From NCBI RefSeq assembly GCF_000189635.1, contig NW_002476484.1, forward strand, positions 62,001 through 126,000: a DNA stretch of 64,000 nt, given 5' to 3'. Shown here one piece after another: positions 9,035 through 63,269 of the stretch (position 1 is its first letter; every line of letters starts with the position of its first letter). The position numbers were made by a program, and so were the translations under genes. The DNA is from Tetrahymena thermophila SB210 (Eukaryota; Ciliophora; Oligohymenophorea; Hymenostomatida; Tetrahymenidae). The notes under the pieces are model-generated. The model ran no database searches and was not told where the DNA came from. It was given only the letters and a program-made list of their open reading frames with translations.

Positions 9035-9958
9035 AATTCAATTGCTCATTGAGATTGCCTCTAATTTTTGATTCTCTATGATTCAAATTCATCTATTTTT
9101 CTTTAGAAGCAGCTTAGTGTGCATTGAAACCAAATAAAAAACACATTCATTCCTTAATACATAGATACATACATAAACAAACAAACATACAAATATTTCC
9201 TTGTACTAAACCAACCAATCAATGATAATAAAGAGTAAATTCAATAATATTAATATATCCTATAAACTAAAGTAATAATTAAAATAAATTATAATACTAA
9301 TAATTAACTTATAAACTAATTAATTAATCATTAAATTAATAATATAACCACTTAAATTAATTTATTCATACAAAAGAATGTAAAATAACCATATTTCAAT
9401 ATTCATCTAATTTATTGTGTAAATTTATATCAACTATGGTTTCTCAAAAATTGTCATTATTGTGCCTATAAATAAATAAATATATTTAATCTTTTGTTTT
9501 ATCTTAATCTATAAAAAAGTAATTTTGTCTTTTTAAAAACTTTTTAATTTTGTTAATTCCCTTAATTATTTTTATTAATAGCAAGCAAAATATTAAGATA
9601 TTGAAATTATTTTTTTGTAAATTTAAATATTAATCAAAAATAGCCAAAAAGATTCAAATTTTTTTTTGAAAATCAAATAAATGTTTTTAACCATTTTTTA
9701 TTGATTCTGAGTTTGAATCATTGAAAAAAAGATTTCTTTTTTAAAATATGTTCTTGAAAAATAAATCATTTTTATTTTAATATTTATATAATTTAATATA
9801 ATATTAATGTTATTATGGTGGTTAAATGATTTAAATCTGTTAAAAGCCTAAAAAATCTAGAAAAATTTGAAAAAATTGACTGTTTTTAATATACTAAAAA
9901 CAAGATTTAATTTTGTAAAAATATCTGATATTAAAAGATATTTAAATTTATTAATTAA
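9035..9958. other. Intergenic, A+T rich
   Basis: Nothing coding is seen. It holds simple runs such as TACATACATAAACAAACAAACATAC (about 9160-9190) and a TAAACCAACC decamer at about 9208 that resembles the Tetrahymena chromosome-breakage core but lacks the downstream part. Confidence 0.55.
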
Positions 9959-21200: not shown

Positions 21201-22090
21201 AAAGAAATAAAGATAAAATAAGTAAAATTAAAAGAAAAAGAAAAATAAATCAAATAAAAATCTATTAAATAAATTAAAAGAGTTGTATTGTTTTAAATTG
21301 ATTTTTTTTGAAAAAAATATTTAAATCCAAAATAAAATCAACTGTTTTTACTTAAGAATAAGTACCAACTTTGAAAGATTAGTACAGTTTGCTAAAGCAG
21401 AACCTAAGGCTGATGCACCTTCGTCACCAATTTAGTTGCTACTATATATATCAAAAAAAAATATAATAAATAAATCACCATTTAAAAGAATAAATGGAGA
21501 AAAAAATACAAAATTATAAAACAATCAAAATAAAAATGAAAAGAGAAAACTAAGCTAAAATGATAAAAAGTTTTAGTGTAAATAAAAATAAATGAATGAG
21601 TATGTTAGTATGAATGAATGAATATATGGTAATTTTTATTAGAAAAATAATATCGGAAATAACTTGAAAATTAAATTTAAAAAAGATTAAAAATAATATT
21701 AATATATTAAAAATACCTCAAATCAATATGGAGAACCTAATGAAATTAAAGTGAAGAATTTAGAAACTTTTTTTATTAATAAAATGAAATTTAAAGATTA
21801 TTCATATAAAAATATATAATTACTTCTTCTACATTGTCGAAATATTAATTCTCTTATTGCATTTATTTATTTATTTTATCAAAAATTTTGAAAAGTAATT
21901 TATGGAAAATTATAAATTATAATATATTAAAAGTTAGTTAGTAAGTTAATTTACTTTTATTTTAAATAAAAATAATTATCAAATATTATTAAAAAAATTT
22001 GCTAAGAGGAAGATAATATATCATAAAACAGTTAGTGTAACATTCATTATTAAATTTTATTATTATATTTAAAACTTGTAAGTTAAATAT
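18230..22090. repeat. Right copy of the tandem LRR-gene duplication
   Basis: Same order of blocks as 13440-17770: terminal exon, repeat exons, the non-LRR intron block at 19970-20175, exon 2, exon 1 and a similar upstream region (GTTAGTGTAACATTCATTATTAAA at about 22030 and about 17733). It is shorter because intron lengths and the set of repeat exons differ. Confidence 0.78.
18392..21862 (-). CDS. Leucine-rich-repeat protein, copy B, with a 1-nt frameshift in one repeat exon
   Basis: Paralogue of copy A. Exons: 21824-21862 (start MQQENQYFDNVEE), 21717-21766, 21352-21441, 20984-21073, 20620-20706 (87 nt, one codon short), 20242-20331, 19748-19837, 19356-19445, 19032-19120, 18708-18797 and last exon 18392-18482. 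The repeat logic matches copy A (SNNKIGDKG…ELAKCTNLSNLILDL in the 20620 exon). Exon 19032-19120 has 89 nt, not 90: one base is missing in the run before AAGT/TACAATTAA, so the next exon is read out of frame and reaches TGA inside it. Because all repeat exons are phase 2 at both ends, skipping the damaged exon would restore the frame. It is therefore a recent pseudogene, a gene rescued by skipping, or a sequencing error; I cannot tell which. Confidence 0.7.
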
Positions 22091-22626: not shown

Positions 22627-25600
22627 TCAAAGTAATTAGTTTAGCTTCAGATTTGAAGTTTGCATTGATTCACTATTAATCCATGAACTAACTTCTTATA
22701 GTAAATTTTCTGATATATGTTTGTAGATAGCACTTTTTCTTTATTCTGATCCATATTCCTGTTCTGATAGAATAACTCTGTTATATTATTATTAATTTTT
22801 TTCTCTTTAAAAATCTTTAAGGGAGTTTTAAGGTTTGATATTTATATTTTAACAGCTATTTCTAATTCCGATTATTGAAATGACATTTGTTAGATTCTCT
22901 GCAGATTTTTAGTTTCTCTTAATTGTTACTATATCATTTAATCTTATGTAAGGTGTAAATATCTTACAAATCTAAGGAACTTATTTGTATACATCTTCAT
23001 CAGAAGCTAATAACTGTTAAAATTCTTAGTATTGATTTTGTGTAAAATCTTTCACGAAAGAATCTCCTTCGAATCCTTCTTGCATATCAATCATATAATT
23101 ACCTAAAATACGTCTATACATTTCACCCTGTTAGTTATTAAGAATATTGCTAACATGTTATACTATTGAGTTAGATGCTAGTCCAACGCCTATAAAATAA
23201 ATAAATAAATAAATATATAAGTAAATTAGTATTATTTTTTATTTAAAATATTTTTATATTACCTGAAAAGACCACATTAGCTTTGAAATAACTTAGTGAT
23301 GGAAGTAGCTCCGACAAAACGAAATCAAAGAAATTACTAAAGTATAAAATATCAGGTGACTAAACTGTAATTATTGAAATACCTTAATCAATTACTTATA
23401 GCTTCAAATTTTCTATAAATGAATCTGAGTTATTTTATGAGAACGGATATGAATAGAAGTCTAAATAAGTAGAATTGAGATCATGCAGATGAACTATAAC
23501 TGTATGAGTATAATTATTATTATTATTCTAATTATTAAAATCAATATCATAATCGTTGATGAATTAAACATCTTAAAGGATGGAGTATTTTATTTTTTAG
23601 CCTGCACCGAAGTAGTTACTATTGTTATATTCCCTAAAGAATAAGTTATTTTTTAAGAATTTATCATCTTTTATGCATACTCCTTGTTAGGAAATGTAGC
23701 CATCTGGACATGATTTATAACAAGAATTATTATACAAGCTGAATTATTATTCACATTCCAAGCATATTCCGTAAAATTAAGAACATTTCTTACATTGATC
23801 TCCTCCATTACATTTATTGCACATTCTTTGGTTAGAATAGTATCCTTTTTCAAAATTACATTCTTGCAAAATTGTTCCGTCTTTTAATAGATAAGGTCCT
23901 GGATATTGAGGACTATTAAGCCAGCATTATTTTCCCATTTAAGTAGAATAAAAAGGACATTATTTAACACATTTATTTTCTATTGTAAACCCTTCACATG
24001 TTTATTTGCAAGATTTATTTTCTACGTCAATATAAAAGTCCTGTGGGCACGACTTCTGACATTTCTTCAAACCTTAAAAAATAATTTTGTTTAATTTATT
24101 TATTTTCACAAAAAATATAATTTATTTAATTCCAAAAGTTAAAAAATATGTTTTATTTATTTGAAAAACTCTTTACATAAAGTGGTTTATTTTAATTAAG
24201 TTTCATAAAATTCTAAAATATTTTTGCTAATAAAAATAAATAATTAATATAATTGATTGAAATTACCTTCAACATAGAATAAACCGTCAGGACATTATGT
24301 TAGACATTAATTGTCTTGTTGAATTCTTCCTAGAGAGCACTGTTTGACACATTCATTATCTTGATAATAAGGATTAGAAAGAGGGCAATAATCATAACAA
24401 AGATTATTTAAGAAAAACATCGGGCACTTATCTACACATGTCATATGAAGTTAAAATTTCTAAATATTGCTGCATTATTAAACGCATTAATTTTCTCCTT
24501 AAGCAGGTTTGTATGTAAGGAAAAGACAGGATAATACACATTCATTGGTGGCTTCCATCTTGTAATATCTTGATGGGCATTCTTCATAGCATTAATCTTC
24601 TCCTTATATATAGCGTTGCTTAGAGGTGCAGTTATTTTTACAAACCCTGTTTTCATCTGAGATAATTGGACATTTTTAAACACACTGTTTCGTTTCCTTC
24701 AATGTGTATAAATTTTAAGGACATTATTTTACACATTTTGAATCTGGTGTCTAATAAGTTTCAGGAGGACACACATTTACACATTAATAAATATTCTTTT
24801 CATTAACGTATACAAATGTTTATAAAGGGCACATACTTAAACATTTTTTTTAGTAAGAATATGGTGCTTCTTATGGACATTAGGCAAAGCAATCTCTACT
24901 AGATTCAATATAAAAGCCTTCACAAGTCTAAGTACATGTTTTAGTAGCTATATCTTGAAAATAATCACTAGGGCACTTTTGAAAGCAAAAATATCCAAAA
25001 GTAAAATTGTTATCATCACACTAAGTGACGCATTAACCATCTTAAGTGTATGGATATAATTGAGGGCAAGACTCAATACAGTTATTTTCGTGGAGGGACC
25101 AATTATCAAAGCATTTTTAGAGACACATTCCATTCATTTATATTGGATATTAATATGGGCAACTCGATTAGCAACCCATTCCAGGAACGAAAAATTCCAT
25201 TTTGTTTTCACATGATTTAATTTCAAAGCATTAAAGTTCGTTGTTTAAAACGATTTTCATATCATTTTCATTGCATTTGTCTACACACATTTTTTAGTCT
25301 GAACCAAGTAAATCACAAGATTTATCAATGCAAACTAGTTCATTCTTTTATTTTTGAATATATTTTGGACAAGAGCTGGAGCAAACTCCTTTATCAACAT
25401 ATTAGAAAAGTGGCTCGTTTTAGCAAGTTTTCACACATTCTTTTTTTGAGTTGATGTAGGGAAAGTAAGATGAGCATTCAGTGACACATTCTTTTCCTAA
25501 TTTCAATAATCCATCTTAGCAAGTCAGGATACAATTATTATTTTCAACAGCATATTACCCACAAGATTCCACACATTCATTAGAAGTTGCACTAATAAAA

Positions 25601-26527
25601 GTTTTTTCTGGACAAGAGTCTAAGCAAATATTTTAACCATGCTTTTTTATGAAAAATTTATCATATGGACATTTCGTTAAGCATTCATATCTAAAAGAAT
25701 ACATGTTGAAATTAATATATTTATTAAATTAATCTGTGCATCCAAGTAAACAAGTTTTTTCACCTGTAATATTTGATGTAATAGCAAAATCTTACAAAGT
25801 GAAATCTTTTTATGTCTTAAGAAGAAGATCATACTCTTATTCAAACTCTTAATCGTCTCTCTTTAAATTGTATTACTTAACTATTTAGTATATCTCCTCT
25901 TTCGGGCACTCAAAATCAAAGCAGTATCTATCTAAAAATTTAAATGCTTAAGAGGAGCATTCTTTAACGCATAACTTGGAAGAAAAGTCAAAATATCCTT
26001 TTACTAATTTATCTTCCTCCTCCTCAATTAAGCAATTAGAAATAATGCAAAAATTATCAAATACGAAATCAGATGAGCCACAATGAGAAACACATTCCTC
26101 TCCTCTTTAATACATTCTTTCTGGACATTCATCATGGCAAATATTACCAATTTAAAAAGTAAACTTTGGACATTTTGTAAGGAAGATATCATTTTTGTAA
26201 ATAAAAATTTTAGGATCTCCCATCTTGAAAAAAGTGTAATAAATTGCAGCTACGAATAAAGTACAAAAGATAATCATAACTAAAGCAAAAACAGCTACTC
26301 TTTTTTGACCAATTAATCTCTCTGATTGTCTTGGAATAATTGGTTATCTATCATTTTGATTTTAATGCTCATCTTTTGAATTAATACAAAAATAAGATAA
26401 AAGAGCATAGAGTAGATTTATTTTATTTACTAACATTAATATGGTCATCAGCGCTTTCGTTAGAAGCGTAATTTCCTTCAAGCTCAACTTCGTGAAAATC
26501 TTTTCTTTCTTTATCTTCCATATTCAT
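22627..26527 (-). CDS. Type II membrane protein with large Cys-rich (growth-factor-receptor-like) ectodomain
   Basis: Start ATG 26527 (MNMEDKERKDFHEVELEGN), stop TGA 22629-22627, 1191 residues after removing introns 26373-26430, 24073-24266 and 23190-23262. There is no signal peptide. An acidic N-terminus is followed by KR and one hydrophobic helix at about residues 58-81 (VAVFALVMIIFCTLFVAAIYY), so the C-terminal side should be outside. From about 100 to about 860, Cys pairs recur as C-x(3)-CP…(Y/F)…C-x(3)-CP, the furin/EGF-receptor-like pattern expanded in ciliates and resembling Giardia surface proteins. The final 320 residues are nearly Cys-free, richer in Asn and Gln, with no second membrane helix. 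Likely a cell-surface or secretory-route protein; ligand unknown. The gene body carries many TAA/TAG Gln codons and no frame breaks were met. Confidence 0.78.
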
Positions 26528-36177: not shown

Positions 36178-37948
36178 ATGGAAATTGAAGATCCATCCTG
36201 CAACAGTTGCTTTTTTGGGATTATCAAGAAAGAAGAAATAAGTAGTTAATAAAATATTTTTGCTTGTCAGCCTAGGCTTGAAATTGTTTAATTAGAACCA
36301 ATAAAGAAGGGAGATTAGGGCGATTAAAGTGATGAGGATGAAAAAGATAGCATTAAAAAGATAAAATAAAAACAGCTGTTTAAGAGAAGAGTTTGCAATA
36401 AATTAATGAAATATAACAATAACAGCGACAACGAAATAAATAGATAAAAATATATTCATGTAATCCCTAATTTAAATATTCCTCCTCCTATTGGAGACTA
36501 CTTCGTGTTCGGGGATATCATTTTAGAAGGCGATTTTAAATAAGACCCATTTAATATGGATAAAACTTATTCATGGGCGTATTTTAAGAGAAGCAATAGT
36601 GTAACTTATTTGAAGGACATCAAATGCATAGAAGTTGAAATGAGTAATAAAAATATATATTTGTTGACTTTGATTTGAAATCCTATTTAGTTGCGCATAG
36701 TATTCATTCATTCTTTCTTTCAATTCATTCAAAATGTAAAATGAGCTTTAAATATATCGAAATATATAAACTATTTTTTTACACTATCAAAATTTTGATT
36801 AGTTTTGTCAATTTAATTCATAAATCAATCTCTAAGAAGATTCAATTAATTTTAATATCGAAATGGCTATAAGCCACTTTTTTTTGAGGCTTTTTTTATT
36901 ACCAACTTTAATTATAAAAAAGAAAGATAAGTCAATACTAACTAAAATTTTTCATTCATGACTCAGAGGTATCTGAATACTCCTGATTAGCAGATACACG
37001 AGCTGGGATAGTTGCTTTCAGAATATGAAAATTTTTCGAAGGAGATGCTTTAGAAAATGCAATAAAACAAAAGTTATATTTAAGAAAATAATTTAGAAAA
37101 GATTTTGAAAGATCTTTCAAAAAAATACTACAAGAAGAGTATGGAGTGGATGTAAGGATAAGTAGATGAGAGCAAATTATATATGTATATGGTTTCTGAG
37201 TATGATTTCGAAACACTTGATAATGACTACAAACTGATTGGTTACAGTTAAAAATTGTTAAATTTGATAGGATTAAATGAAGTAGAAGCAAACAACATAT
37301 TTATGAGAAAGGGGAGATTGGAGATTTTTGATGGATTGTCTAGGTAATTATAATTTTCTATGAATTTTCTAAATTTATAGCTTACATCTAATAATTAAAT
37401 ATTGTAAATTGAAATAGATTATATCGTTTGATGGTTAGATTGATGAATATATATTAAAATAAATTGGGTTAAGCATTTATCCTAGACCATAATATAATTA
37501 CCATTGATGGAATCACAATCCCTAATAAATGTGAAATTATATTACCTCCATTCAGCTGTATAACATAAGAGAGCTTTAAAGAGTACAATTATTTTGGAGA
37601 TTTTTTGATGTCCAAATACTGCACCTTTAGACTATTTGTGTTTCACGTGAACCCTAACATCATAAAATAAGTAATGAGTGTGAGAGAATAATAAAAATAG
37701 ACTCCTCATTATTTATACCAGGACATGGAATATTCTATGCTGAGGTAAATAAAATAAAATAATATTTTAAATGATATTTAATATTAGAAAAGTTTACATT
37801 TAATTTGTTAAATAAACAATTTTATATAAAAAGTGAGGTGTTTATTGATAAATTCTATCCTTAAAATAATTAAAATGCAAGTCAAATGAAGTAGGAATAG
37901 GATGAGTAAGAGAGCAGTAAGGTTTGTAAGTATCGTAGCCTTTAATGA
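36178..37948 (+). CDS. Array family member 1: basic region plus PAS-like core
   Basis: Start ATG 36178 (MEIEDPSCNSCFFGIIKKE); introns 36644-36931 (phase 1), 37344-37438 and 37745-37833 (phase 2); stop TGA 37946-37948; 432 residues. Order of parts: acidic N-terminus, Lys/Arg-rich stretch (KIKQKQLFKRRVCNK), a conserved box YFVFGDIILEGDF…DKTYSWAYF, a helical box YLNTPDQQIHELG, then a core YDFETLDNDYKLIGYSQKLL-NLIGLNE with FMRKGRLEIFDGLSR, and DGITIPNKCEI. The core looks like a PAS domain (I-x-Y-S-x-x-L-x-x-L-L-G), and the D-G-x-x-I-P strand resembles the PAS of fungal zinc-cluster regulators. A regulatory DNA-binding role is only an inference. Three paralogues with the same three introns follow. 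Confidence 0.8.
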
Positions 37949-38401
37949 GTAGTAAATATTTGAGCTTTAAGATTAAAGAAGCTAAAAAGTAATAGTAAGA
38001 ATAATGAGATGATATGTATAAAAATGTTTATTTGTTTGTTTTCATTGATTTTTTCTTGATCCAAATAAATAAACAAAGTAATTGCTTAATAAACTAATTA
38101 ATTGTTTTTCAATTTAAAAATCTCTGGTTATAAATGATCAAGTAAAAGTTTTTGATTTAGATAAAAAAAAGTACATTTTATATTTACATTATCTATATTA
38201 AATAGTGATTTTTTAATTAATTTTTTAATCTATTTGCATAGTTAATAATGCTTGTAAATAATTTTTGTTTATATAAAAACTCAAATTTGCTAATTAATAT
38301 AATTTGCAGAAAATAACATCTGCAAACTTGGTTATATTTCGCTTTAAGAGGAACAAAAAACACATAAATAAATAAAACTTATCTTGAATTCTAATTATTA
38401 A
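37949..38401. other. Spacer between array members 1 and 2
   Basis: A+T-rich 450 nt. No gene seen. Confidence 0.5.
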
Positions 38402-40025
38402 ATGGAAATAGAAAACGACAACGATTCTATTTAGCAGACATCAGAAGTTGTCACAAATAGTGATAGTTCTAGTCAGAGCGTAAATAGTAACAAAGAAACT
38501 AATTAAATTAACTTTCAATTTGTAGTTCTTAAAGAAAATGATGATGATAAAGAGAAAGTAATCAAAAAGCTAAAAAAGGAGCAAATGCGAAAGAGAAAAA
38601 TTCAAAATAAACTCGAAAAAGTTAAGAAATAAAATAAGTTATTAGGGGTTAAGCAAAGCGATTATACCATTTAACCATTCTTTTAAATACTTCAACCAAT
38701 GGAAGATTGCTTCGTATTTGGAGAGATAGTTCTTGAAGGAGATTACTACAGAGACCCATTTAATATAGAAAAAACTTATCAATGGTCATACTGGAAGAGA
38801 GGAGAATATGCTAGTTAAGTAAAAGAAATATGTTGCACCTAAGTAGATATGAGTAAATTATTTTTCACTTTTGCAAATTATCTATCTATCTATTGAAGAA
38901 CTTTATTCAATAGTATAGTAACGCAAAAATGTAATTAAAGTACAAGAATTTTTTTGGCAAGAATCAAAAGCAAGTTAAAAGCATTTAATATTTAAACAAA
39001 ACAATTATATGAGAAATTTTTAGCTTAACAATGTTTTTTTATAAATTTAGAAAGAATGGTTAGTACTGAATTTGATTTTTAATATGCAATTCAAAAATAC
39101 TTAAACATGCCTGATTAATTAATTCACTAGCTTGGCCTCTACTTGTAGGAATACTACGAGAAAGCAAAGAAACATTTATCGTTAATGAAAGAAAGAATAA
39201 ATGTGCTCCGTGACTTAAAAGTGAAAGAGTAATTCTAAATGATCTCATAAGATTACTTTAAAAGAGGTTTAGAATGGGTTAAAACATAGGTGACAAAGGA
39301 TGATATTTATATGTATATATATTATGAAATAGATTTTGAAACACTTGATCAAAATTATAAAAACATTGGGTACAGCCAAACCTTATTAAATTTACTTGGA
39401 CTTAATGAAGAAAATGCAATACCGTTTATTTTGAGAAAAGGTCGTCTTGAATTTTTAGATGGTCTTTCTAGGTAGAAAAATAAATTTTCTTAAATTAACG
39501 CTATTAATATTTTGTTTAAAATTAGACTAAGAAGATTGATAGGAAGACTTTATTATATAAACAGAAAGAAACCAAATCATGGATTCTATTTTGAGCATGA
39601 TATAATGACTCTCGATAACATAAAAATCCCTGTAAAGTGTGTTATCACAACACCAGATTTTTAATGCTTCACTCCTGAAAACTTCTAACATTATGATCTA
39701 TTTTTCGGAGAGTTCGCATTAGAGTATTCTTGCTTCAGAGTCTTTAAATTTGAAATAAATCCTAATATAATAGAGAATATTAAACAATAAAGAGCTCTTA
39801 ATGAAAAAAATTATTAAATTGATTTTGAGTATTCACTAATGAGGTAAATTTTATTGTATTTTTTAACATGAATATTATTTAAAAACATTGTATTAATTTA
39901 AAAGTGAAATGTTCATAGATAAATTCTACAAAAACTAAGACGATGAAATTTAAAAAAAAATAATTCAGTAAAAAGCTGAGGATGAATAAAATAAATCAAG
40001 AACTTGTGGAATAAGGTATATTTGA
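38402..40025 (+). CDS. Array family member 2: basic region plus PAS-like core
   Basis: Start ATG 38402 (MEIENDNDSIQQTSEVV); introns 38853-39050 (phase 1), 39472-39525 and 39844-39904 (phase 2); stop TGA 40023-40025; 436 residues. Closest relative of member 1. Shared blocks: a long Lys/Arg helix (KKLKKEQMRKRKIQNKLEKV) that could be a bZIP-like basic region with a short coiled coil, CFVFGEIVLEGDYYRDPFN, YLNMPDQLIHQLG, IDFETLDQNYKNIGYSQTLL-NLLGLNEENAIPF, LRKGRLEFLDGLSR and DNIKIPVKCVITTP, then NPNIIENIKQQRA and EMFIDKFY near the C-terminus. Exact reuse of intron positions in the four genes makes the models trustworthy. Function unknown. Confidence 0.82.
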
Positions 40026-40875
40026 AAAGAAAATAATTAAAAAAATAACTAACTAGTAATGCCTAACAAATTAAAATAGTCATGTAATCAATAACATAAA
40101 ACCTATTAATTAACAAACATTTTATGAATCAGTATAGCAAATAAAATCTAAAATAAAAATATATTTTAATTAATTAATTTAGAAAATACTAAAATTTAAA
40201 AATATAAAATCATTTAATTTAAATAAATAATGATATTTTAGATAATATTCATAATCAAATAATAAATAAATCAATCAATATATTTATATATATCTATCTA
40301 TCAATAATTAAATACTTTATTTTGCTAAAAGCATGTATCAATTAAAAAAACTAAAAATACAATCCAATCTTAATTATTTTTCAATTAGAACATAAAATCT
40401 TACTTTCTTTATTTGATTAACTATTGATATTAATTTAGGAATTTTTATGATTAAAGCAGGCTATAAATAAGAAAAAACTTATTTATGCCATATAATAAAT
40501 TATTTATGTATTTTATTTGTATGTCTGAATTAAATAATCGTAAGTAGTCATTAGAAATATTAAATATTGTTGTAGTATAGACAACACTCACTGAATGGTT
40601 ATATAGTATCAAATACAAAAAAGAATTGCATCCTTTAAGTTTTTGGGAAAAGAAATTAAATTTTGCAAACTCTTCAAAAGAAAGAAAGATAAAAACAAAG
40701 AAATGTAGATAGAGTGAGAGATTTCTAAAATAATAATTCAATAAAAGCAAATAGAATACAATTTGATTAATTATCTATTAAAATTACTCTCACATTATTT
40801 AAACAAATATAAAAAAAACTAATACCACAAATTTATAAATCTAAAAAATAATAAAAAAGTAAAACAAAATTGTAA
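40026..40875. other. Spacer between array members 2 and 3
   Basis: A+T-rich 850 nt with ATAAATCAATCAATATATTTATATATATCTATC-type simple sequence at about 40263. No gene seen. Confidence 0.5.
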
Positions 40876-42435
40876 ATGGAGCTTGAAGAATCTCATTCTC
40901 ACAATACAAATTCATCAGAGGTTGATTCATACTAATACAGCTCTAACTCAGTCGAAAAAGATAGTTCATAGAAATCTACTTGCTCTGAACTGTAACCATT
41001 ATAAATTGTAAAAACTGTAATCAAAAGAGCAAAAAAAATTCCTATTTTTTTGCAGAAGTTGAGTAAGTAAAAAAAAAAAGAACAATTAAAAAAGTATAAT
41101 TTTTTGATTTCGCCTCTATGTTTTCTTCCTAGCGAACTTTTGGATGTTTATGCAAACGGAGACGTTATTCTCGAGTATGATTTCTTAAAAGACCCTGAGA
41201 CAAATAAAAAAACTTTAAATTGGTCATATATTAAATAAATCACTAACGTAGAAGTGAAGGAAGATATGAACACTATTGAAATTCGTTAAAGTAATTTTAG
41301 CAAATAAAAATTTTTAATATTCCTTTTGCTCTTTTTTTTGATTATATTAAAATGCTAAATATAAGAATATTTTATATTTATTCTCTTCTAATTTTATTTT
41401 TTAAGGTGTAAATGTAGAACAAAAAAAAGATTTACAACATTTGTATAATAAATATATAAATACCCCTGACTAGAAAACGCACGAACTAGGAATCGTTCTC
41501 CGCTAGTTCGAAATATAGAAGACAGAAATTTTGAACAGTTTTTTCAATATGGTTAAAATGAACCCAAATATCTTAGAACCTCTCTTTAAACTTCAATAAA
41601 AATATGTAGCTGCTTGTCTTGATTGGATTAAAAAAAATATAAGCCAGAATAAGTATTTTTTTTATGCATTTGGAAGCTATAACTAAAAGTTTAAACAGTA
41701 TGAATAAAACCATATAGGATTCAGCAAGCCTCTACTTGAATTACTTGGTTTTGATGGAGAAAGCTTTAAGAATTACATTTTAAGGAAAGGAAGATTTGAA
41801 ATTTATAATTCGCTTTCTAGGTAAAAAACGATTATTCGAAAATTACATTTGTTAATCAATTAATTAATTATATTTTCAACTAATATCTTAATTACTTTTC
41901 TAACTTATTGCAAAGTTAGATTTGTTTTTTTATTAAATAATTTTGATAAAATTAGAATGGAGATGATTATATAAAAAATCTAATATGGAATTGAGTCATG
42001 GTCAGAAAAAAAATGGGATGTCGTTTTACTCACAATTGAAGATATTCCTGTTTACTGTTAGCAAAGAAAGTTAGCAATTTCAATCAAATAATTTTAAGAT
42101 ATCATTTAAGAATACAAACTTTAGAATATTATTAATGAAAGTTGGATTGATTTCATTAATCTTTGTGGAATAACTGAATTCTTTATTGATGAAAACTAGA
42201 TACAAAATGTATTAAATTAAAGAAGATAAATAAATTAATATGATCCCATATCCGATTTAGCCTACACAGCTCAAAGGTAAAATTTATTCTTAAAATTTTA
42301 TTTAATTAAATTTTTTTTTACAGTGAAATATTGATAGAAAAGTTTTATAAAAGTGAGTATGAAGATATTTAAAAAAAGTAATAATAATTTTAAAATAACT
42401 ACTATACTTAAGATGAAAAAATAATAATAAAATGA
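40876..42435 (+). CDS. Array family member 3: divergent PAS-like paralogue
   Basis: Start ATG 40876 (MELEESHSHNTNSSEVD); introns 41291-41405 (phase 1), 41821-41955 and 42277-42323 (phase 2), the same positions as members 1 and 2; stop TGA 42433-42435; 420 residues. Conserved blocks: Lys-rich segment, ANGDVILEYDFLKDP…TLNWSYIK, YINTPDQKTHELGIVL, CLDWIKKN, HIGFSKPLLELLGFDGESFK and LRKGRFEIYNSLSR. The region after the second intron is less conserved (WSEKKWDVVLLTIEDIPVY) and the D-G-x-x-I-P strand is replaced, so ligand or partner binding may differ. Confidence 0.8.
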
Positions 42436-43474
42436 ATAAATAAATAAACTGCAAATATAATAGGCTTAAAATATTCTTATACCAAAAATCTTCTAATAAA
42501 ACTAAAAGTTCAATTAAAATAACTTCTTTAAAATATTAAAAATAAATATTAACTAATTAACCAAACCAATAAACAAATAATCAATTTAACTCTATTAAAA
42601 ATATATTATCATAAAATCCAAATTAAAAACTAGAATAAATATATATTTTAATTAACTAATCAATTTTAGGTAGTATTTTATAATAAAATATATGTTAATT
42701 TTTCCTAATTAATATCTATCTAATTGACATTCACTCTCTAAAATATTTAAAGAGCTAAATATATCCTTATATTTAAATTATTAATTATCTCCTTTTATTT
42801 ATATAATAAACTATTTTAGAAAATGTAAATTTTTTAGAAAAACAATCTCAAATGAAAATATAATATCATTTTCAATTTTGAAAAAAAATTCTAAAAATAA
42901 AATACAAATAAAATTTACAAAGAAGAATTTAAAAATATTATTTTTTTAAATGAACTTGTATTTTTAATTTTTTTTATTTGGTGGTATATGAAAGAATATA
43001 AATAAATAAAGAAATTAATATTGATTTTTATTTTTGTTTGATTTTGATGATAAATAGTAGATGTATTAGAAAAATAAAGACCTAAATTTGAGTTGAAAAT
43101 TTTCACAAAATTAATTAATTAAATTTGAAAAGCAAATTGATATTTTTGAATTATTTTTTATGATTTTAATAAATGATTGACAAATATAAAAAAATATAAA
43201 TTAATTACAATCTTTTATTGCTTGATAAATCTTGCTAGTGAGAAGAAAGATGCATTTATTAATAGAAAGATAGATAAATCAAATGTTTTATATAATTAAA
43301 ACTATTAAATCCTACTATTTATAGCTTTTAAGAATTTATTACACCTATTTTGATAATTTATTATTTTAATGCTAAAATGCAGAAACAAACATTTGGTCAA
43401 TCAGTGGTATTTTTAAATCATACCATTTACTGTTGCTGCATGTTAGCTATTATTTTAATATTTTTGCAAATATC
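42436..43474. other. Convergent intergenic gap
   Basis: Between array member 3 (+) and the P450 gene (-). A+T rich; nothing supported. Confidence 0.5.
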
Positions 43475-44983
43475 TCATTGGTAGATCAAAGGATTTTCTT
43501 TGAGCTTAAGATTAATTCTGAGTTTATCAACTGGTTCTATTAAGAAAGCATAGTTGAGAACCATTTCAAAGTTAGGATCGCTTTCAAAATCAAAAGTCTT
43601 CATGAAATAATTAATCATAATTCTAGCTTCTATTAAGGCAAGATGTTAGCCAATGCAGTTTCTGGGACCAGCATTGAAGGGGATAAAAGTGTAAGGAGTG
43701 ACAGTATTTTTGTTAAACCATCTTTCAGGCTTGAAGGAATGAGGGTCTTCGAAATATTTAGGATGTCTGTGAACAGAGCAGGGAGAGGGCTTAACAATAG
43801 TTCCCTTCTTGATAGGAATGTCCTTAAGCATGTGGTCTCTAAGAGCGACACGATTGAATAATTAACCAGCGGGTCCATAGAGACGTTGAGTTTCTTAGAT
43901 AACTCCATTAAGGTAAGGAAGCTTAAGGAGACCATTTTGAGAGTAGTCAGTGTTAGCATCAAGTTCTTCTTAGAGTTTCTTTTTAATTTCGGGGTGTTAA
44001 GTAAGGAACCATATGGCCATACCGCAAAGATGACCAGTTGTATCCATACCAGCAACGTAGAAAGTCATGAATTCACTAATAATTTCATCGAGGGAGAGGA
44101 CTCCAAGGAGGTTATTCTTTTTAAGATAATAAACAAGATCTTCCTTGGTAGTTTATTCACCACGCTTTTCTAACTCTTCTTCTTCTTTGATACGCTCGTT
44201 GATGATGTCACCAATCATTTGACGGAATTCTTTTATCTACTTGTTCAACTTTCTGTCAGATTCTCTGATGCCCCATTTGAAGAAATTGGTACGGAATAAG
44301 AAGTAAAAGGGAGTGCTAATTTACTTACCAACAGAGTTGATGAGGTATGAAAGAGCTACAGACAAACTCATGCCATAGAAGGATTTATCTTTTGAAATAT
44401 TACTGAAGAAGGTTTAGATAACGACTTCAGCAGTGATTTCTTAAAATAATTCGATGACATCAACGTTTTTAACATTGCCTGAATCAATATAACGCTTATA
44501 AACTTCCTTAGTAATTTTTTCTATTGATGGGACACGTTTGCTGAGTTGTTCGAAGTGGAAGACACCAGAAAGTACATTTCTGTTTTTCTTCCATTGGGGG
44601 CCTTCAGAGAAGATGATTCCCTAACCTACGAGTCTGATGATATTGTCAATTAAGAGAGTAGTCTTTTGATAAGCCTTGTTTTCAAGTTAGACAAACTCCT
44701 TAATATATTCAGGGTCAGAAATCTTGATGATGGCACCTGTGGCATTGTTTTCAACATAAATTTTAGGGTCTGATCCGTCATCATACATATGCTTCAAGTG
44801 ATGATCAACATCTTTGTATTGCTTAACACGTAAGCCAGCACCATAGAAAACACCAACGAAAGGGTAGAAAGAACCTTTACCCCACTTCAAGTATTTTCTG
44901 TACTACAAGTAAGGATTGATAATAAATACATACAAAATGTATAGGACTATTGCTAGACCTGCTAAAGCAAAGTAGCTTACCAT
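43475..44983 (-). CDS. Cytochrome P450 monooxygenase
   Basis: Heme-thiolate monooxygenase; substrate unknown. One uninterrupted frame from ATG 44983 to TGA 43477-43475, 502 residues, the normal eukaryotic P450 length. An N-terminal anchor helix (YFALAGLAIVLYILYVFII, residues 4-22) predicts an ER location. Oxygen-binding I-helix AGMDTTGH at about 311-318, K-helix ETQR at about 361, PERW about 60 residues later, and the heme loop FNAG-PRNCIG with Cys about 443. All key residues are present. It is intronless, unlike most neighbours, and uses C-ending codons (TTC, ATC, CTC, AAC) and CGT far more than the surrounding genes, a sign of selection for high expression. It sits on the opposite strand inside the PAS-like array. 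Confidence 0.95.
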
Positions 44984-47900
44984 TAGAAACTTGTCTAAAT
45001 ATCTATTTATGTTTTTTTTAATTTTTAATACAAAAATTTTTTCTTAATTTTTTATCTTTAATATCTTTGGTTAATCAATTTAAGCAATCAATGGTTTGGA
45101 TCTTTGGCCTCTAAAACATAAGACTTAAGTTAATTAAAAGATCAAAAATAGAAATGAAAATGGTATGTTTACTTATTTTTAATTTAAAGATACAAACAAA
45201 TAAATAGATAAGCCTATTAACAGAAACAAAAAAAACAAATAATGAGTGAAAGAAGGAGAGATATTAAATCAGACATTCAATCAATCAATCAAAAATTGTC
45301 AAAATAAATCAAATTATTAATAATTAATTAATTTTAGATGTTTTTTTTTTTCATATAAAAGAATTATACGTCAAATATTTTTTGCAGTACGCTATTTATA
45401 TATAAAAGAAATTCTTAGCTTGGTATATCAACAAATAACAAATATTATTTCTTTAATTGAGTAACCTATTAATAAATACTTCTACTTTGAATAAACGCAC
45501 CTTAAAACCATTTCTTATTATAATCACTAGATTAGATATACAATAAATTATAAAAACTAAAATAGTATTCATTTTTATGATAAGATCTTTTAGTATGAAT
45601 TAATTATTATTTTTTTTAGATTACCTCCAGGTTTACAATCGCATCCAATTAAAAAATTAATTTGACAAGTGATTTTGTGAATAATTCTTTTATTAGTGAC
45701 TCTAGTTTTCCCTTTTAGAAAAGTAGATATAATTTTATATATTTGCACATTATCCCAGCCAAGCATTTTATTCATTCACTATAATTGATAATTCAAAGTT
45801 CTTTTTTAATTTTCATTTTTAAAGGAATTAAAGAAAGATATTTCAAGGCCTTTTTTTCAAATTGTTTTTCTAAATTGAAATATTTGTAAGTCATATTATT
45901 TTTTTAATTAGTTTGTTCCCTCCAAACGAAATAATTTAACTCAATCTAACCATTTTCTCTATTGTTGTTAAGCTGTTAGAATTTATTTTTCACTAGCTTT
46001 TAAAATAACTTTTGTTCTAAGTTTTTCAGTTGTAAAATATAGTTTATGCTTTACAAAATATCTTTTTTAATTGTGGACAAATAGCATTTTTTACCAATTG
46101 TATTTAGCGTCATTTAAAAAAAATCCCCCTTATTAATAGTATGATATGTTAAGATATTCTTTTTCACTAATTAAATTACACTTTTTTGTGAAATAAAAAT
46201 TGGTTATTGATTAATTGATTTCTTAACATGCTACTTTTATTTATCTAAAACTGATAAGTTGAGTTTAAAATTTTATATCTCCCATTTTTTAATTTGATAT
46301 CTAAAATAAGAAGTAATTTTAATAAAGAGAAAAATTAAAATAATCCAGCTTTAAACTTATTGCATTTTCAATAAATATGATTTTTTAAACTTAATAAAAA
46401 ATATTTATTTTTAATTAATAGTAAAAGAATTACATTTTTTTGAATTGACTTTATTATGTAATCTAATTAAATATAATTGATAAAGGCTATTGATTTCCCA
46501 TAAATAATAAATTTACTCACTTCTATAAAAGAGATTGATGTATTTTAATTCAATTTAGAATGCTCTTATTTTTAACTAAATTTCTAGCTTAATTATTTGA
46601 ATTTAATAGCTCTATTTATTATTATGTTAAATTTGTTGAAAAAAAATAAAATTATTAAAAGATATTATTTAATTATATTACTTTTGGATGATTAATATTA
46701 AGAGCTGACCTAGTTTTATTTAATCAAATAATAAGAAAGAATTTAATTTTTTTAAAAATATAATTTAAATTCACATATACCTTTTGAAAAAATAACATTT
46801 TGTTTATTATTTTTCAAAAATAAACTTTTAATTAATTATTTTCATTATTTTGTTTATTTGATTTTAAATTTAAGCTAAAGTTTTATTGGTACTCATATTA
46901 ATTTGAGCAAAAATATACCAAAATATAACAAATGTAAAATTTACTATGCTTAATTGTATTTAAATTTTTGAATTTTTTTTATCCAAATATTAATGGAGCA
47001 AGATAATTTTATTTAGAATAATTCAAATGACAAATTAAAATATATGAAACTAAAAAATTAAAATATTAACTATTAATTACTACAAGAAAGAAACATAAAA
47101 AAAATTTATGTTTAGGCAAATAAAATCAAAATTTTCAAGTAAAAAACCTTTAAAATTATTAATAATTATAAGTTTTGCTATTATTCAAACAATTTCAATG
47201 ATGATTTTTAAATAAGTTAAATTTAGTTATTTAACATAAATATTTGGTTTTATTTTTATTCATTAAATTAATTTATTTGCTTTTAAATTACTTTACATTC
47301 AAACCTTTTGAATTGACTATTTTCCTTTAATGTTTTCAATCAAATGTACAGGTTTCCAAATATCTTATGGTCAATAGAAAGCCATATTTATATTATAAGT
47401 TTAAAAAAGTATAAATTAAAATAAGTTTAATATTTTGATTCATAAAAAATTATTCTTAAAAAAATCGTTTATATTAAATTTATTTTATTTAGTTCTAATC
47501 ATGCCTATTTTAAATAGAAAAAAATTTCTTATTTTGTATCTATGTTTTTTGAATTAATTATTAAATAAATAATTTAAAATAGATTTTTTATTTTTAAATT
47601 AAAATAATTAATGTTAACTTTTTGGTTAAAATATGTTTTAAATGCTTCTTAAAGTTTAGTGAAATTAATTAATTAAATTTATATTCCTTTTTTAAAATTT
47701 ATCAAATTTTTGAATTTTTTTTAACTCCTATCTCATAAGAAAAAATCTGTTTAAAGTATATTTTACTAAAAAAAATAGAAAAATATGTAGATTTAAAGAT
47801 ATCATAAATGAAATAAATAAGCAAGCGATAGTACTTCTTCTCTTAATAAATTCTCAACTAAGAGCTAGGATTTGGCCCTAAATAATTTTAAAATATAAAA

Positions 47901-49266
47901 ATAAATCATAATTTTTGGAAAAATACAATCAATCATTTGTGTTATGATCTTTAAGTACATTAGATATGTTCTGAAGAAAACCAAATAACCAAAAATCAAA
48001 AAATTCAATCATTTATAAAGATAAAAAACCCTCTTAAATATTTTCATATCTCTAAAATGAATTTTTAAAAAAAATCAATTAAAGGAAAGTAAGTCTGATG
48101 AATATTATTTATTTATTTAGTATTAATTTCCATTAAAAAAAATTCAGAAAAAAATCTAAAAATAAATAAAGCATAAAAATGAAAGTATGCAAGTAATAAT
48201 TTTATCAATATTAGTTTTTAATTTAAGAGCTTGAAATGTTTATAAAAAAAATAAGTTTTTAAACGGAAGGAAGATAAAAAGTATAAATAAATAAGTAATT
48301 TACAGAGATATTTTACTTAAATCTTGGTTTATTTTTTCTAAAATATATCTTAAATAAGTACATTCAATTAATTTTCTTACCAAAATAATTAATTGTTTAT
48401 TTAAAAGTAGAAGTAAAAAAAAATAACCAATTTTTTAATTTAAAAAATTAATCACATCTTCTAAATTCGAAAATCTAAAATTTAATAATTGATTTATTGA
48501 AACAAAATATATTTAATAAAATTTCAAGAAAATATTTTTTAATTTTAACTCATTTATTCATATACAAATTTAACTGTTAAAATTAAAAAATATTCTCATA
48601 ATAAAGATTTTAATTTATTTTTACCAAAATGAATTTTAATACAAAGAATTAATTAATTATTATTTCCATCAAAAATAATTTATAAAGTATATTTTTATTT
48701 ATTTTAAAGATTTTGTATTAAACAAAATGAATCTTAAAAGATTAATATTGATAAATGAGACAGATTAGCTTAAAATGTAATTTAATTTTATTAAATATTT
48801 TTTAATTATGAATATTTATTTTTAGGTTTTATATTTTATAAAATTACGAACACATTTTATATTAATTATCAAATAAATTATTTAATTTCGCTTCAGCCTT
48901 TCTTTTTTTTAATTGATTTTAATTTATTTGATAAAATGTTATTTATAAAAAAGATCTGAATATTCTACTAAAAATCACATAAAATATTCCACTAAATTCA
49001 AAAAAAAAGAATTTGTTATTTTATGCATTCTTCTTTTTGTTTATGTTATTTGTAAAATTCTGATAAACAATAATATGAAAAGGCATTGTAACAAAAAAGT
49101 GTAATTTAACTTGAGTATTATTAAGCAGACAATCCATATTTAAGCATTAATATATATTAATGATTTTAACTCAATACTAATATAAAATAAGATTTGTTCT
49201 AATTAATTGATTGATTGATAATCATCACTAGTTTTACTTTATTAAAGTCAGATTTAAAATTGAGAA
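44984..49266. other. 4.3-kb A+T-rich gap with no supported gene
   Basis: Upstream of the P450 gene. Composition is more uniform and A+T richer than the exons, with frequent AATTAATTAAT tracts and no frame keeping coding composition for long. A short minus-strand frame (45590-45775) with GCDCKPGG is discussed as a finding. No RNA gene recognised. Confidence 0.5.
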
Positions 49267-51144
49267 ATGTAGTAGCTTGAATAAGTTAAATCTAATTTAG
49301 ATATGAACTGCCTAGAAGAATAATCATTTGATTTCGAATAGTGTTATGGACAATATATTATGCTTTAAACACCATCTCATTCTTTGCTTAGCTCAGAAAA
49401 CTAAAATTCTGAAGATTAGTAACAAGAAGAAAATAGAAATCAAGAATTATTATCTAAAAAGATAGTAAAAAAAAGAGCTAAAAAAGTATCAAAATTCATC
49501 CAGCAAAAGCTGAAATAGAAATTGCAAATAAATGAAAAGCTGGATATTTCTCTCTTCAAAAATATTTAACTTCATAAGGATATATTTTATATTTTCGGTG
49601 ATTAAATTATTGAACTAGATTATAATTTGAAACCTTTTGAAGATAGACCAATAGACTTAAATTAGATTACGCAATTTAAAAGTGTCAAAATGGTGGAAAA
49701 AATTAAATAAATTGATACTATCGAGCTAAATTATGGTAAATATTTATAGAATGTATGTATGATATGCTAATTATTTAAGTGATAATTGAATAATCACAAA
49801 ATAACTTTTGTGTATTTAATGTAAATTATTTTTAATTAAAAGAAATGAGCTCAACATAAAGAAGCTAATTTCAATTTGTCATAGACAGGTTTTTATAAAG
49901 TGATCAAAGAGATTTATATTAATTCGGTTTATGTTTACAGAAACTCTAAAATTTATCAGTTTGCTGCTAAAACGATCTTAATAAGCATCATTAAATATTA
50001 ACAAATCCACAAAACTGCTTTGCAATGATAGAAAAATAAAATCTATTTTACTAAAAAAGCTATGAATGGATTAAGTCAAAAACTGATGAGAGTGATTTTT
50101 TTACATACACACTTTCTAAGCTAAACTAAGAGAATATGATATTCTAGACTAATAAGACAGGTATTAGCAATTCATTTATTGCATTGTTAGGAGGTGATTT
50201 TGATACCATATCTCAAGTTGCTCTTCGAAAAGGGGGATTACATTTCTTGAATTCCAGATCAAGGTAGTGAAATCTGATTTATATTTTTTATTAGTTATAA
50301 GTAACAGATCATTTTATAAATGATAAAAAGTTAATTTAATAATTAAGAACGAAAGATAATAATTTATTAAGATAAATATTGATTGATTAATAGTTAGGTG
50401 GATGGATATAAATATAAATAAATCATCTTACCCGCTAATATTACAAATCTTATAATTTAAAAATAGAATCAAGATACTAACCAAATGATAATTGAGTTGA
50501 TCATTTCTTGATCAATCAATCAATCATCCAACCAATTTTAATTAAGTTTTCTAATTTATTTTATTGCTTTAGATTCATAAGAGATAAATATTTTTAAAAA
50601 TATATCTTAATACATTTCAAATAATAAATAATATAGGTTTTTATAGGTTTTTGACTAAATATAATACATAAATACGTTTTAAAACCCACAAAGAGAGCTA
50701 GAGTTTGAGCTCATAACATTCGACTAAATAATTGTACCTTGTAAAGCAACAGTAGAATATCTCTATCTTCCAATTTGTAGAGATGAAAATTGCTTTTACA
50801 GAAAAACATACAAAATCGATTCAATATATTGGATGAATTTTTATTCTACTTGTAAGTTAATAAAATATCACGTGAGTCCAAATATTATAATGTAGGTAAT
50901 TGAGACCAGAAAAAAATTGAGTCAAGAGCAAAAGATATTATATGAATCTTACTTTGATGATTTTGTATACACCACTGAAAGGTTATATTTAATAATGTCT
51001 ATAATTTGTACAGCTATTTATTATTTTTTATTGAACAAAAGCGAAATATTTTTAGAAAAATACTATCAAAAAGAAAAAGATCGTCTGAATAAAGAGAAAA
51101 ATAGCAAATTACAGCATTGTGGTTTCATAACAATAAAAAATTGA
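49267..51144 (+). CDS. Array family member 4: most divergent PAS-like paralogue
   Basis: Start ATG 49267 (MQQLEQVKSNLDMNC); introns 49736-49842 (phase 1), 50264-50636 and 50982-51041 (phase 2), again matching the family; stop TGA 51142-51144; 445 residues. Conserved landmarks: KKRAKKVSKFIQQKLKQK, IFYIFGDQIIELDY, SYEWIKSK, TGISNSFIALLGGDFD, LRKGGLHFLNSRSR, FDQIIVPCKATVEY, VSPNIIMQVIE and SEIFLEKYY at the C-terminus. The D-P-F/KTY…W box is changed. The middle intron is much longer (373 nt) than in the others, and the last intron begins GTTATAT, not GTAA. It is separated from members 1-3 by the P450 gene and a long gap. Confidence 0.72.
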
Positions 51145-60037: not shown

Positions 60038-61773
60038 ATGTACACACTAATTTGCGCTGTTTAAGATTTAGCTTTATTTGGAATTTTTATTACAGGGTTG
60101 GTCTTATTAGAATGGCAAATAATTGTATTTCCCATTTTAATTTACATCCTCATCCCATTTTTAAACGAGTTGGTCTACAATTGCTTTGCTAAATTATTAT
60201 TCACAATAGAAAAGGAGAAGAAAAGGATGGAGTAAAGGTATTCTTAATCAGAATTAGAAAATAAATATATTGAAAATTTACCTATTTTATACCATCCCTC
60301 ATACAACATTACAGCTTGTGGGATTGAAAAACTTCACCCTTTTGATTCTGTAAAGTATGGAAGAGTTTTTAATATACTCAAAGAAAAAGGATTTCTATAA
60401 GAATAAGGTTTCTATAAGCCAAAAGAAAAAGTAGGAAGAGGCTTAATGCTGCATTTAGGAATGTCTCCTTTGTATTTACTTTATCTTAATTATGCTGCTT
60501 ATGTATCCAAATGTATAGAAATTCCTCTATTCTTCCTACCTGCCAGCTTCTTAAGATGGAAAGTATTAGATCCTATGATGTTTTCTACTCAGGGTTCAAT
60601 AGATGCCGCCGTTTTATCTTTAAAAAGAGGCTGGTCTATAAATTTAAGTGGAGGCTATCACCACGCTTGCAGGTAAACTAAAAGTTTATAAAAAATATTA
60701 ACATACTATTACAAATTTTTGAATAAAATAACAAAATTACATCTAATTATTATGTTTTTTAACTAAAAATAAATTTCATTTCTGCATCTTTTAACAATTT
60801 AAACATCTAAGATACTCTGAAAAGCAGAAAGTTGCCCTAGAAAATTAAAAAATTTACTCAAAATTTTAAATAAATAATTTCAGTAGTGAATTAAGAAACC
60901 AATAAAAGCCTAATCAGTATTTATCAATAAAATTATAAACATCTAATAAAATCTAACATAGCATCAATAGGAATAAAAAGTAACTAGTATAGAAATGATT
61001 AAATTATAGAGTAAATTTTAAAAAAATAATATAGAAGTATAAAACAGGATTTAATTATTAATACAACATTCACCCAATTTATCATCTCCAAAAAATAGTT
61101 ATTTATTTATTTAATTTTGATTAGAATAAGTTTTGAAATTCTTTTTTCTTTTATTTAATTTAAATTCGATGTTTATCGTTTCATTTTATTAAAATTTAGG
61201 TAATCTGGAGGCGGATTTTGCATATATCCAGACATATGTTTCGCTATAGAATATTTAAGAAAATGTTTTGGCATAAAAAGATGCATGATTGTAGATTTAG
61301 ATGCTCATCAAGGAAATGGACATGAAAGAGATTTTATAGATGATAAAGAAAATACATTTATATTAGATTTTTACAATCACAGTATTTATCCAGCAGATAC
61401 CTTTGCAGCCAAAGGTATAAGTCTTTCTAAAAACGTAGATTTTGATACATCTGATTCAGAATATATCTCTATGTTGAGAAAGACACTTTAAAAAATTCTT
61501 GATTAATTCAAACCTGAGTTTTTACTATATAATGCAGGAACTGATTGTCTTGAAGGTGATCGTTTGGGTTAAATGAATCTCTCTCAAAATTGCATAATTC
61601 AGAGAGATTAAGTTGTATTTGAAGAATGCTTAAATAGAGATATACCCTTAACTATGGTGCTTTCAGGAGGGTATTAGTAAATAAATGCACCTGTTATAGC
61701 TGACTCTATTTTAAATCTTGATTAAAATTTAAAAATAAAAAATTACAATAGAAAAAAATTATAAAACCCATGA
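60038..61773 (+). CDS. Class IV histone deacetylase (HDAC11-like) with N-terminal hydrophobic anchor
   Basis: Zn-dependent deacylase fold; HDAC11 itself removes long-chain acyl groups. Start ATG 60038; one phase 2 intron 60673-61199 (527 nt, long for this window); stop TGA 61771-61773; 402 residues. The match to HDAC11 is strong throughout: LPILYHPSYNITACGIEKLH, HPFDSVKYGRV, WSINLSGGYHHAC, SGGGFCIYPDI, IVDLDAHQGNGHERDF, YNHSIYPADTFA, NAGTDCLEGDRLG and SGGYQ. The catalytic His pair (about 208-209), metal ligands D246, H248 and the Asp of NAGTD, and the catalytic Tyr of SGGYQ are all present. The extra feature is residues about 8-45, two hydrophobic stretches (LALFGIFITGLVLLEW, IIVFPILIYILIPFL) absent from animal HDAC11, suggesting membrane anchoring. 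Confidence 0.93.
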
Positions 61774-63216
61774 AAAAAAGTTATTGATAGATTTATTTTT
61801 AAATAAAAAAAATCAGTAGACTGATAAATGCTTAATCATCAATCTTTCACAAAATTTTAAAACTTTTTAAAAAATTATTATAATAATAATCTCAAATTCA
61901 CAAATTGTATATCAAAAACAAAAAAAAATAACATATTCAAAAATGATATGACTTAACTTTTTATTTTTCAATTTATATATATATAACCTATTACTTTATT
62001 AAACTAAGTATTTACTAGCTATTCATTTTCTAGTCTTTTTAACAATAACTATTAGCAATCTTTAAAATAGATAATTTTTTATTTATTATCTATCTATTTT
62101 ATTAGTTTACTAATTTTAAATATCCAGATTTGATTCCATAAAACAAGGTGAAACAAAGGTTTAAAAATTAACCTGAAATTTATTGTTTATTTTAAAAAAT
62201 AAATTATTATAAATCATAATAATTAAATTAAAACTAGATAAAATTAAAATTTTTTGTGATTTATGATAAGACTAATAGATTCTGAATAATATAAAAATAT
62301 ATACAGCCTTTCATTCATTTAGCCTACCTACACTAACACAACAACATTATTTATCAAAATTTTTCTTTTTATTTCTCAAGAAATGGTAATTTTATCTAAA
62401 GTAATTATAAAAAGTTGTCATGTTAAAATCTTTGATACAAATAAATATAAATTTTGTGAGTAGTAATACAAACATTGGTTTTTATGATAAAGAATTAAAA
62501 GTATAATAAGTAGAAATTTTAAATCCTCAGTAATTATAATTTATAATTGATTTAGTTATTTAACTAAAAGCTAGTAGTTTCTAAATAGCTTTTAAAACTT
62601 ATACAGCTTATCAACTAATTAGCTTACCTTTTCTTATCAAAAATAATGTTTAATATTATATTTTTTCTAACCAATATTATGAATTTTATAAACTAATTAT
62701 TATTTAAATTTATATCGAAATTCGACTCATCTCATAATTTTTAAATCTTTATCAGGCAAAAAAAATAGTGGCTTACAGATTATTGTTTTATAAAAGTTTG
62801 AAAAATCAAAATCAAAATCTCATCTAAACTTATTTATTAATTAAGAATTATTATTTAAATAATCAAAATTACTTTAACATAATAATAATAATAACTTTAA
62901 AACAGGTCATATAATTTAAAAATCTGAAAATTTAAATAAAATATTTATTAGAGTATATATAATGGCTTATAATTCAAAAAAATGTTGATAGATTTCATAT
63001 TAGCATTAAAATTATTCAATCCTTTTATTTATTTTATGTTTTAAATAGAAAACATTTTCTGTCTCATTTCTATTTGTAACATTTAAAAAAAGTAACAAAT
63101 AAAATGTAAAGCAATTTTTTATACATATTTATAGTTTTAATTAGAAGATTAAATTTAAAATTTTAATAAACTGAATTTAAATCAAATCAACTAGTCTATC
63201 AATCAATCAATCATCG

Positions 63217-63269
<53 letters not shown>

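Follow-up and report, generated by a model that had tools for sequence, protein, structure and literature searches.

The 64,000-nucleotide stretch of the Tetrahymena thermophila SB210 genome analyzed here (contig NW_002476484.1, positions 62,001 to 126,000 of the forward strand; hereafter the window, in whose numbering all positions are given) carries four related genes, g1 to g4, on its plus strand. A telomerase exon from the same assembly agrees with this origin: over the aligned exon residues it is identical to PDB 6d6v, the T. thermophila telomerase, except for a few ragged residues at its start and an insert of 21 residues that looks like an intron. An earlier note on this DNA had described the four genes as a four-member tandem family with a basic region and a PAS-like core, inferred to be ciliate-specific, to encode sensors or transcription factors, and to be expanding in place. 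The gene models were built under the ciliate code (code 6), with exon boundaries and splice sites inferred from homology. The spliced model of g1 (36178..37948, 442 aa) has exons at 36178-36643, 36923-37343, 37418-37744, and 37834-37948; g2 (38402..40025, 436 aa) at 38402-38852, 39051-39471, 39526-39843, and 39905-40025; g3 (40876..42435, 420 aa) at 40876-41290, 41406-41820, 41956-42276, and 42324-42435; and g4 (49267..51144, 445 aa) at 49267-49735, 49843-50263, 50637-50981, and 51042-51144. The span of 36178-51144 previously given for the cluster is thus exact from the start of g1 to the end of g4.

All 12 introns of the four models have GT..AG ends. The models bear out the identical intron positions and phases that the earlier note had reported: phases 1, 2, and 2 are common to g1-g4, and the positions are homologous in the alignment, with intron 2 splitting the R of S|R and intron 3 lying immediately 5′ of SE. 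The GC content is 26-29% in exons and 14-18% in introns. In BLASTP comparisons, the four proteins share 24-43% identity (E 4e-23 to 2e-106). The sequence blocks named in the note, from the Lys/Arg stretch to NPNII, are all present in the order given, with residue variation; the GD box reads FGDIILEGD, FGEIVLEGD, NGDVILEYD, and FGDQIIELD across g1-g4, and the YLNTPDQ block reads FLQSDQR in g4.

The intergenic gaps are 454 bases between g1 and g2, 851 between g2 and g3, and 6832 between g3 and g4. A tandem arrangement is found for g1-g3 but not for g4, which is set apart by a minus-strand cytochrome P450 reading frame outside the family (43478..45268; Pfam PF00067, E 1.1e-68). The 3.8 kb between this frame and g4 (45400-49200) has 17% GC and scores no better than E 0.66 against the family profile. 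No fifth copy was found in any frame of the window (next best E 0.043).

A dispersed and divergent family

Four is the size of the local cluster alone, since the family has at least 46 loci in this genome, counted as separate places: g1-g4 and 42 others. These counts are lower bounds for the 101-Mb assembly searched and come from protein searches with g2 and three more queries, six-frame profile searches, and one extra region. The g2 protein search gave 33 matching stretches, and a profile of eight members found 17 further loci, all with E <= 1.2e-10; a later family profile was retrained on its own matches, so that its E-values are circular for the weakest members. About 35 of the 42 loci outside the window have one reading frame that spans over 330 of the profile's 430 positions, although such single-frame loci may still hold in-frame introns, as g2 shows. 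The proposed restriction to ciliates was checked against prokaryote genomes and viral contigs, which gave 95 and 238 pattern matches, respectively, none confirmed by tblastn, and thus no relative.

The tree, Lys/Arg counts, column conservation, and hydrophobicity reported below are based on 43 rows of 250 aa or more, from which second readings of window genes as loci (L015, L026, L066, and L072) are excluded; the misaligned first 19 residues of the g4 exon 3 row were left out of a later alignment. The median pairwise identity among the 43 rows is 17% (range 8-39%); most members lie scattered in the genome and have diverged strongly. Other small clusters are found on contigs C443 (two members), C334 (three, two of them about 4 kb apart), and C113 (two). 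The three C334 members (L048, L049, and L050) are single-frame and group at 98/86 in the tree. The C443 members form a second tandem pair of intron-bearing genes (L079, 376501-382500). By eye, one intron of this pair appears to fall inside the PAS LLG region, unlike those of g1-g4, so the 1, 2, 2 pattern does not seem to be family-wide.

In the maximum-likelihood tree, g1 and g2 group at 100/99, and g1, g2, and g3 at 98/92. The gene g4 and a single-frame locus, L014, adjoin g1-g3 in a five-member group (93/95), within which the best tree places L014 between g4 and g1-g3 with weak support (85/21). With a median of 1.7, the terminal branches are long, which leaves the deep branching order unsure. 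These sequence comparisons point to duplication as the source of the local array, at least as far as g1-g3 are concerned. The idea of a family expanding in place is supported for these three genes; all four form one group in only 12% of bootstrap trees.

Evidence for a PAS core

Searches with named sequence models do not identify the family. Pfam scans, which covered 44 of the 46 loci with 45 sequences and left out the C443 pair, gave no convincing match and no PAS row, and NCBIfam gave no convincing match for 24 sequences. The scattered matches, the lowest being NF038092 (0.0032), tail_tube (0.0039), HTH_CHD6-9 (0.0044), Hpr (0.0052), and Fur (0.0053), were each confined to one member and were treated as chance. 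Against PDB sequences, profiles of 4 and 24 rows gave a best value of 0.025, a low-complexity match.

The fold was instead suggested by structure prediction followed by a fold search, a check that the earlier note had proposed for each protein and that was made here for g2. Two AlphaFold2 models of g2 were made with the window sequence alone as input, from alignments of 9 and 6 rows; the queries contained intron letters, and both models end at aa 396. Both returned the PAS order of strand-strand-helices-strand-strand-strand, with pLDDT values of about 58-87 in the strands and below 50 in the connecting region. All 50 Foldseek matches listed for each model are PAS or LOV proteins (probability 0.89-1.00), and the best E-values among the matches listed are 3.6e-4 and 1.3e-3. 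A match to Mediator (VIA-align row 3) was rejected as spurious, since it covers residues 148-210, which are mostly translated intron 1. The core predicted in this way lies at 39305..39760 of the plus strand in g2, with intron 39472-39525 inside, and its equivalents at 37177-37652 in g1, 41654-42190 in g3, and 50097-50877 in g4 are likewise each interrupted by intron 2.

A profile comparison that is independent of the structure models points the same way. Using hhalign, the 45-row family alignment, which still contained two re-read window genes, was compared with seven PAS sequences of the same genome that were found by Pfam models (L001 and L073-L078), some of them in frames of 709 and 1055 residues. 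The similarity to these canonical sequences takes the form of one local alignment of 76-77 columns in PAS register (P 0.016-0.038). The score of the real order was 20.8, compared with a best score of 15.9 in 150 block-shuffled versions, all of which it beat, and 9.3 for the reversed order. As the models, the Foldseek matches, and the shuffle-controlled profile comparison concur, the PAS-like core of the earlier note is supported, if weakly in absolute terms by the profile comparison. The proteins of g1-g4 very probably carry a PAS fold, and the best reading of the family is that of an unnamed, very divergent variant of this known fold.

Compared with the PAS superfamily (PF00989, PF13426, and PF08447; LOV, eag, and haem PAS structures in the PDB), the family has a similar predicted strand-helix order, and its S..LL.LLG helix and PAC-like T.DgI.I strand fall on their PAS equivalents. 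In contrast to the superfamily, it has no Pfam sequence match, adds a GD-box hairpin and a helical region in front and an R...DFxY...SExFxxKFY segment behind, and shows neither a conserved LOV cysteine nor a conserved haem histidine. Over g2 aa 233-412, Cys reaches at most 21% of members in any column and His at most 10%. LOV chemistry and a shared haem histidine are therefore unlikely, whereas an axial haem ligand other than His may exist.

Flanking segments and other features of the window

In g2, the helical region 5′ of the PAS core lies at 39074..39289 (helices 4-17, 22-54, and 58-79 of model 2), with equivalents at 36946-37161 in g1, 41429-41638 in g3, and 49866-50081 in g4, all on the plus strand, as are the segments that follow. 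Further upstream, the GD box of g2 (CFVFGEIVLEGDY, 38708..38746) is a predicted short beta hairpin, with strands 103-106 and 109-113 in model 1 at low confidence (pLDDT blocks 41-48). Its G107 (g2 numbering) is kept in 32 of 41 members. The equivalents are at 36499-36537 (g1), 41146-41184 (g3), and 49585-49623 (g4).

The most conserved columns belong to the C-terminal helix and R...DFxY...SExFxxKFY motif, found at 39761..39929 in g2 (intron 39844-39904 inside), 37653-37858 in g1, 42191-42348 in g3, and 50878-51066 in g4. In g2 numbering, the top positions are R380 (41/42 members), Y405 (40/41), and Y393 (40/42), followed by D321 (39/42), R279 (38/43), and F400 (36/41), so that four of the six fall behind the PAS core in this motif, the end of which lies beyond the last modeled residue, aa 396. 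This pattern of conservation suggests that the C-terminal segment could be the working output of the protein or could pack on the PAS sheet.

Elsewhere in the window, the plus strand carries a 558-aa frame with TPR repeats (9929-11602; Pfam PF00515, E 3.1e-12) and a reading frame with a histone deacetylase domain (60346-61770; PF00850, E 1.2e-35), and the minus strand an 805-aa frame with a furin-like cysteine-rich match (24109-26523; PF00757, E 1.5e-11). Two AT-rich arrays (14073-15118 and 20203-21433) consist of units of about 370 bases in 2.4-3.3 copies with 75-80% matches and have no Rfam match at the gathering threshold. A TCTA microsatellite of 19 copies lies at 63195-63269. Neither ARAGORN, run with the bacterial code for tRNA genes, nor Rfam at the gathering threshold found anything in the window.

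Possible function of the family

We propose that g1-g4 encode PAS switches or partner-binding regulators, probably soluble and each built on one divergent PAS domain, and regard the chances of this as about even. The predicted architecture is a helical region and GD-box hairpin, the PAS domain (two strands, helices, a long helix, and three strands), a helix, and the C-terminal motif. A small ligand or partner protein would bind in the PAS pocket or on the surface of the sheet. Pairing would fall to the flanking helices, a role known from other PAS proteins, and the conserved segment at the C-terminus would either pack on the PAS domain or relay its state to a partner. The variable, often basic N-terminus may provide nuclear targeting or nucleic-acid contact in some members only, and paralogues differing in pocket and partner could serve many inputs or pairings.

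The proposal of a regulator draws on the analogy with pairing through PAS in the fungal Zn2Cys6-PAS proteins AcuK/AcuM (Rds2, Pas2). In this group, mutations in the PAS domain are reported to impair function, and the domain is regarded as the likely means of pairing (PMC12719309, PMC8092316). As in the present family, their PAS core lies behind a non-PAS N-terminal part, and by eye a core segment of theirs beginning NPEFCELVGK (PMC12719309) resembles S..LL.LLG; the 45 family sequences, unlike these proteins, have no Zn2Cys6 row. In oomycete bZIP-PAS proteins, such as PlBZP32 (PMC7273347), a basic stretch precedes the PAS core, as in part of the family, but no bZIP row was found in the 45 sequences, and the basic stretch is not conserved. 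The bHLH-PAS proteins combine HLH with two PAS repeats, whereas the family has no HLH row and g2 model 1 shows one PAS-like region, much of the model outside it being of low confidence.

Instead of paired switches, the genes could encode cytosolic one-domain PAS adaptors that regulate kinases, histidine-kinase relays, or channels and have no nuclear role, a rival that we hold to be doubtful but worth keeping in view. The PAS region is the sole named fold found, and there is no long hydrophobic segment: in the 43 members, every stretch of 19 residues stays below 1.6 on the Kyte-Doolittle scale (whole proteins for g1-g4, the profile-aligned part for the other 39). Expanded histidine kinases have also been reported in ciliates (PMC3341644). 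However, some members have basic blocks close to the core that look, by eye, like nuclear-targeting signals.

These basic blocks lead to another rival, akin to the transcription factors of the earlier note, in which g1-g4 would be sequence-specific transcription factors, the Lys/Arg helix in front of the GD box binding DNA and the PAS domain pairing subunits or sensing a metabolite, after the pattern of the fungal Zn2Cys6-PAS and oomycete bZIP-PAS proteins. We consider this unlikely. The Lys/Arg-rich stretch of g2 (aa 52-80, 38555..38641, plus strand; equivalents at 36343-36411 in g1, 41011-41088 in g3, and 49447-49527 in g4) is indeed predicted to be helical, as part of helix 47-80 in model 1 (block pLDDT 55-72 over residues 51-80). 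Dense stretches, defined as at least five K/R in 8 residues within up to 60 residues before the core, occur in 16 of the 43 members but in only 1 of 171 control windows taken from the core; K+R averages 9.8 in the 60 residues before the core, part of which may be untranslated in some members because the true start codons are uncertain in most, versus 6.7 in core windows. PAS is paired with DNA-binding domains elsewhere (PMC12719309), and a few weak matches bear DNA-binding names (HTH_CHD6-9, the lowest at 0.0044, Hpr 0.0052, Fur 0.0053, SigI 0.011, KNOX2 0.11, and a ZNF462 finger 0.14). However, each of these matches is confined to one member, and Pfam gave no bZIP, Zn2Cys6, or HLH row for the 45 sequences. 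Moreover, 27 of the 43 members, g1 included (maximum of 4), have no dense stretch, only 3 of 43 show K/R clustering beyond that of a composition-keeping shuffle (p<0.05), and in L035 the region holds 10 acidic residues against 1 basic. A conserved DNA-binding region was thus not borne out, and the Lys/Arg stretch reads better as a variable basic tail.

Finally, the PAS likeness could be a modelling accident hiding another alpha/beta fold with a different function, and the low absolute hhalign probability (1.3-2.8%), the modest pLDDT, the shallow alignments, the intron letters in the queries, and the scarcity of Foldseek E-values below 0.001 all weigh against a PAS assignment, but two models, which overlap in most of their sequence and so are not fully independent, two aligners, and the model-free profile comparison concur, which makes such an accident very improbable.

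Judging from titles and the openings of abstracts, searches of the Tetrahymena and ciliate literature showed neither a name for the family nor its assignment to PAS. The paralogue group itself may already have been recorded, because Table 2 of a 2009 microarray survey (PMC2636879) lists unnamed families, “Hypothetical protein family 1-4”, of 33-50 genes. Its family 2 (43 genes, 4.5-54.1% identity) could be the family described here.

From a biological perspective, a divergent family of at least 46 loci in a standard laboratory ciliate lacks a Pfam name, and its fold was hidden from the sequence searches made here. It is a speculative and rather improbable idea that the GD-box hairpin, the helical region, and the conserved KFY segment together make up a new module for output or nucleic-acid binding in an unnamed PAS class, which would give a large repertoire of intracellular sensors and possibly many missing Tetrahymena transcription factors. 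If the PAS assignment itself is right, the family adds many candidate intracellular sensors to the Tetrahymena repertoire.

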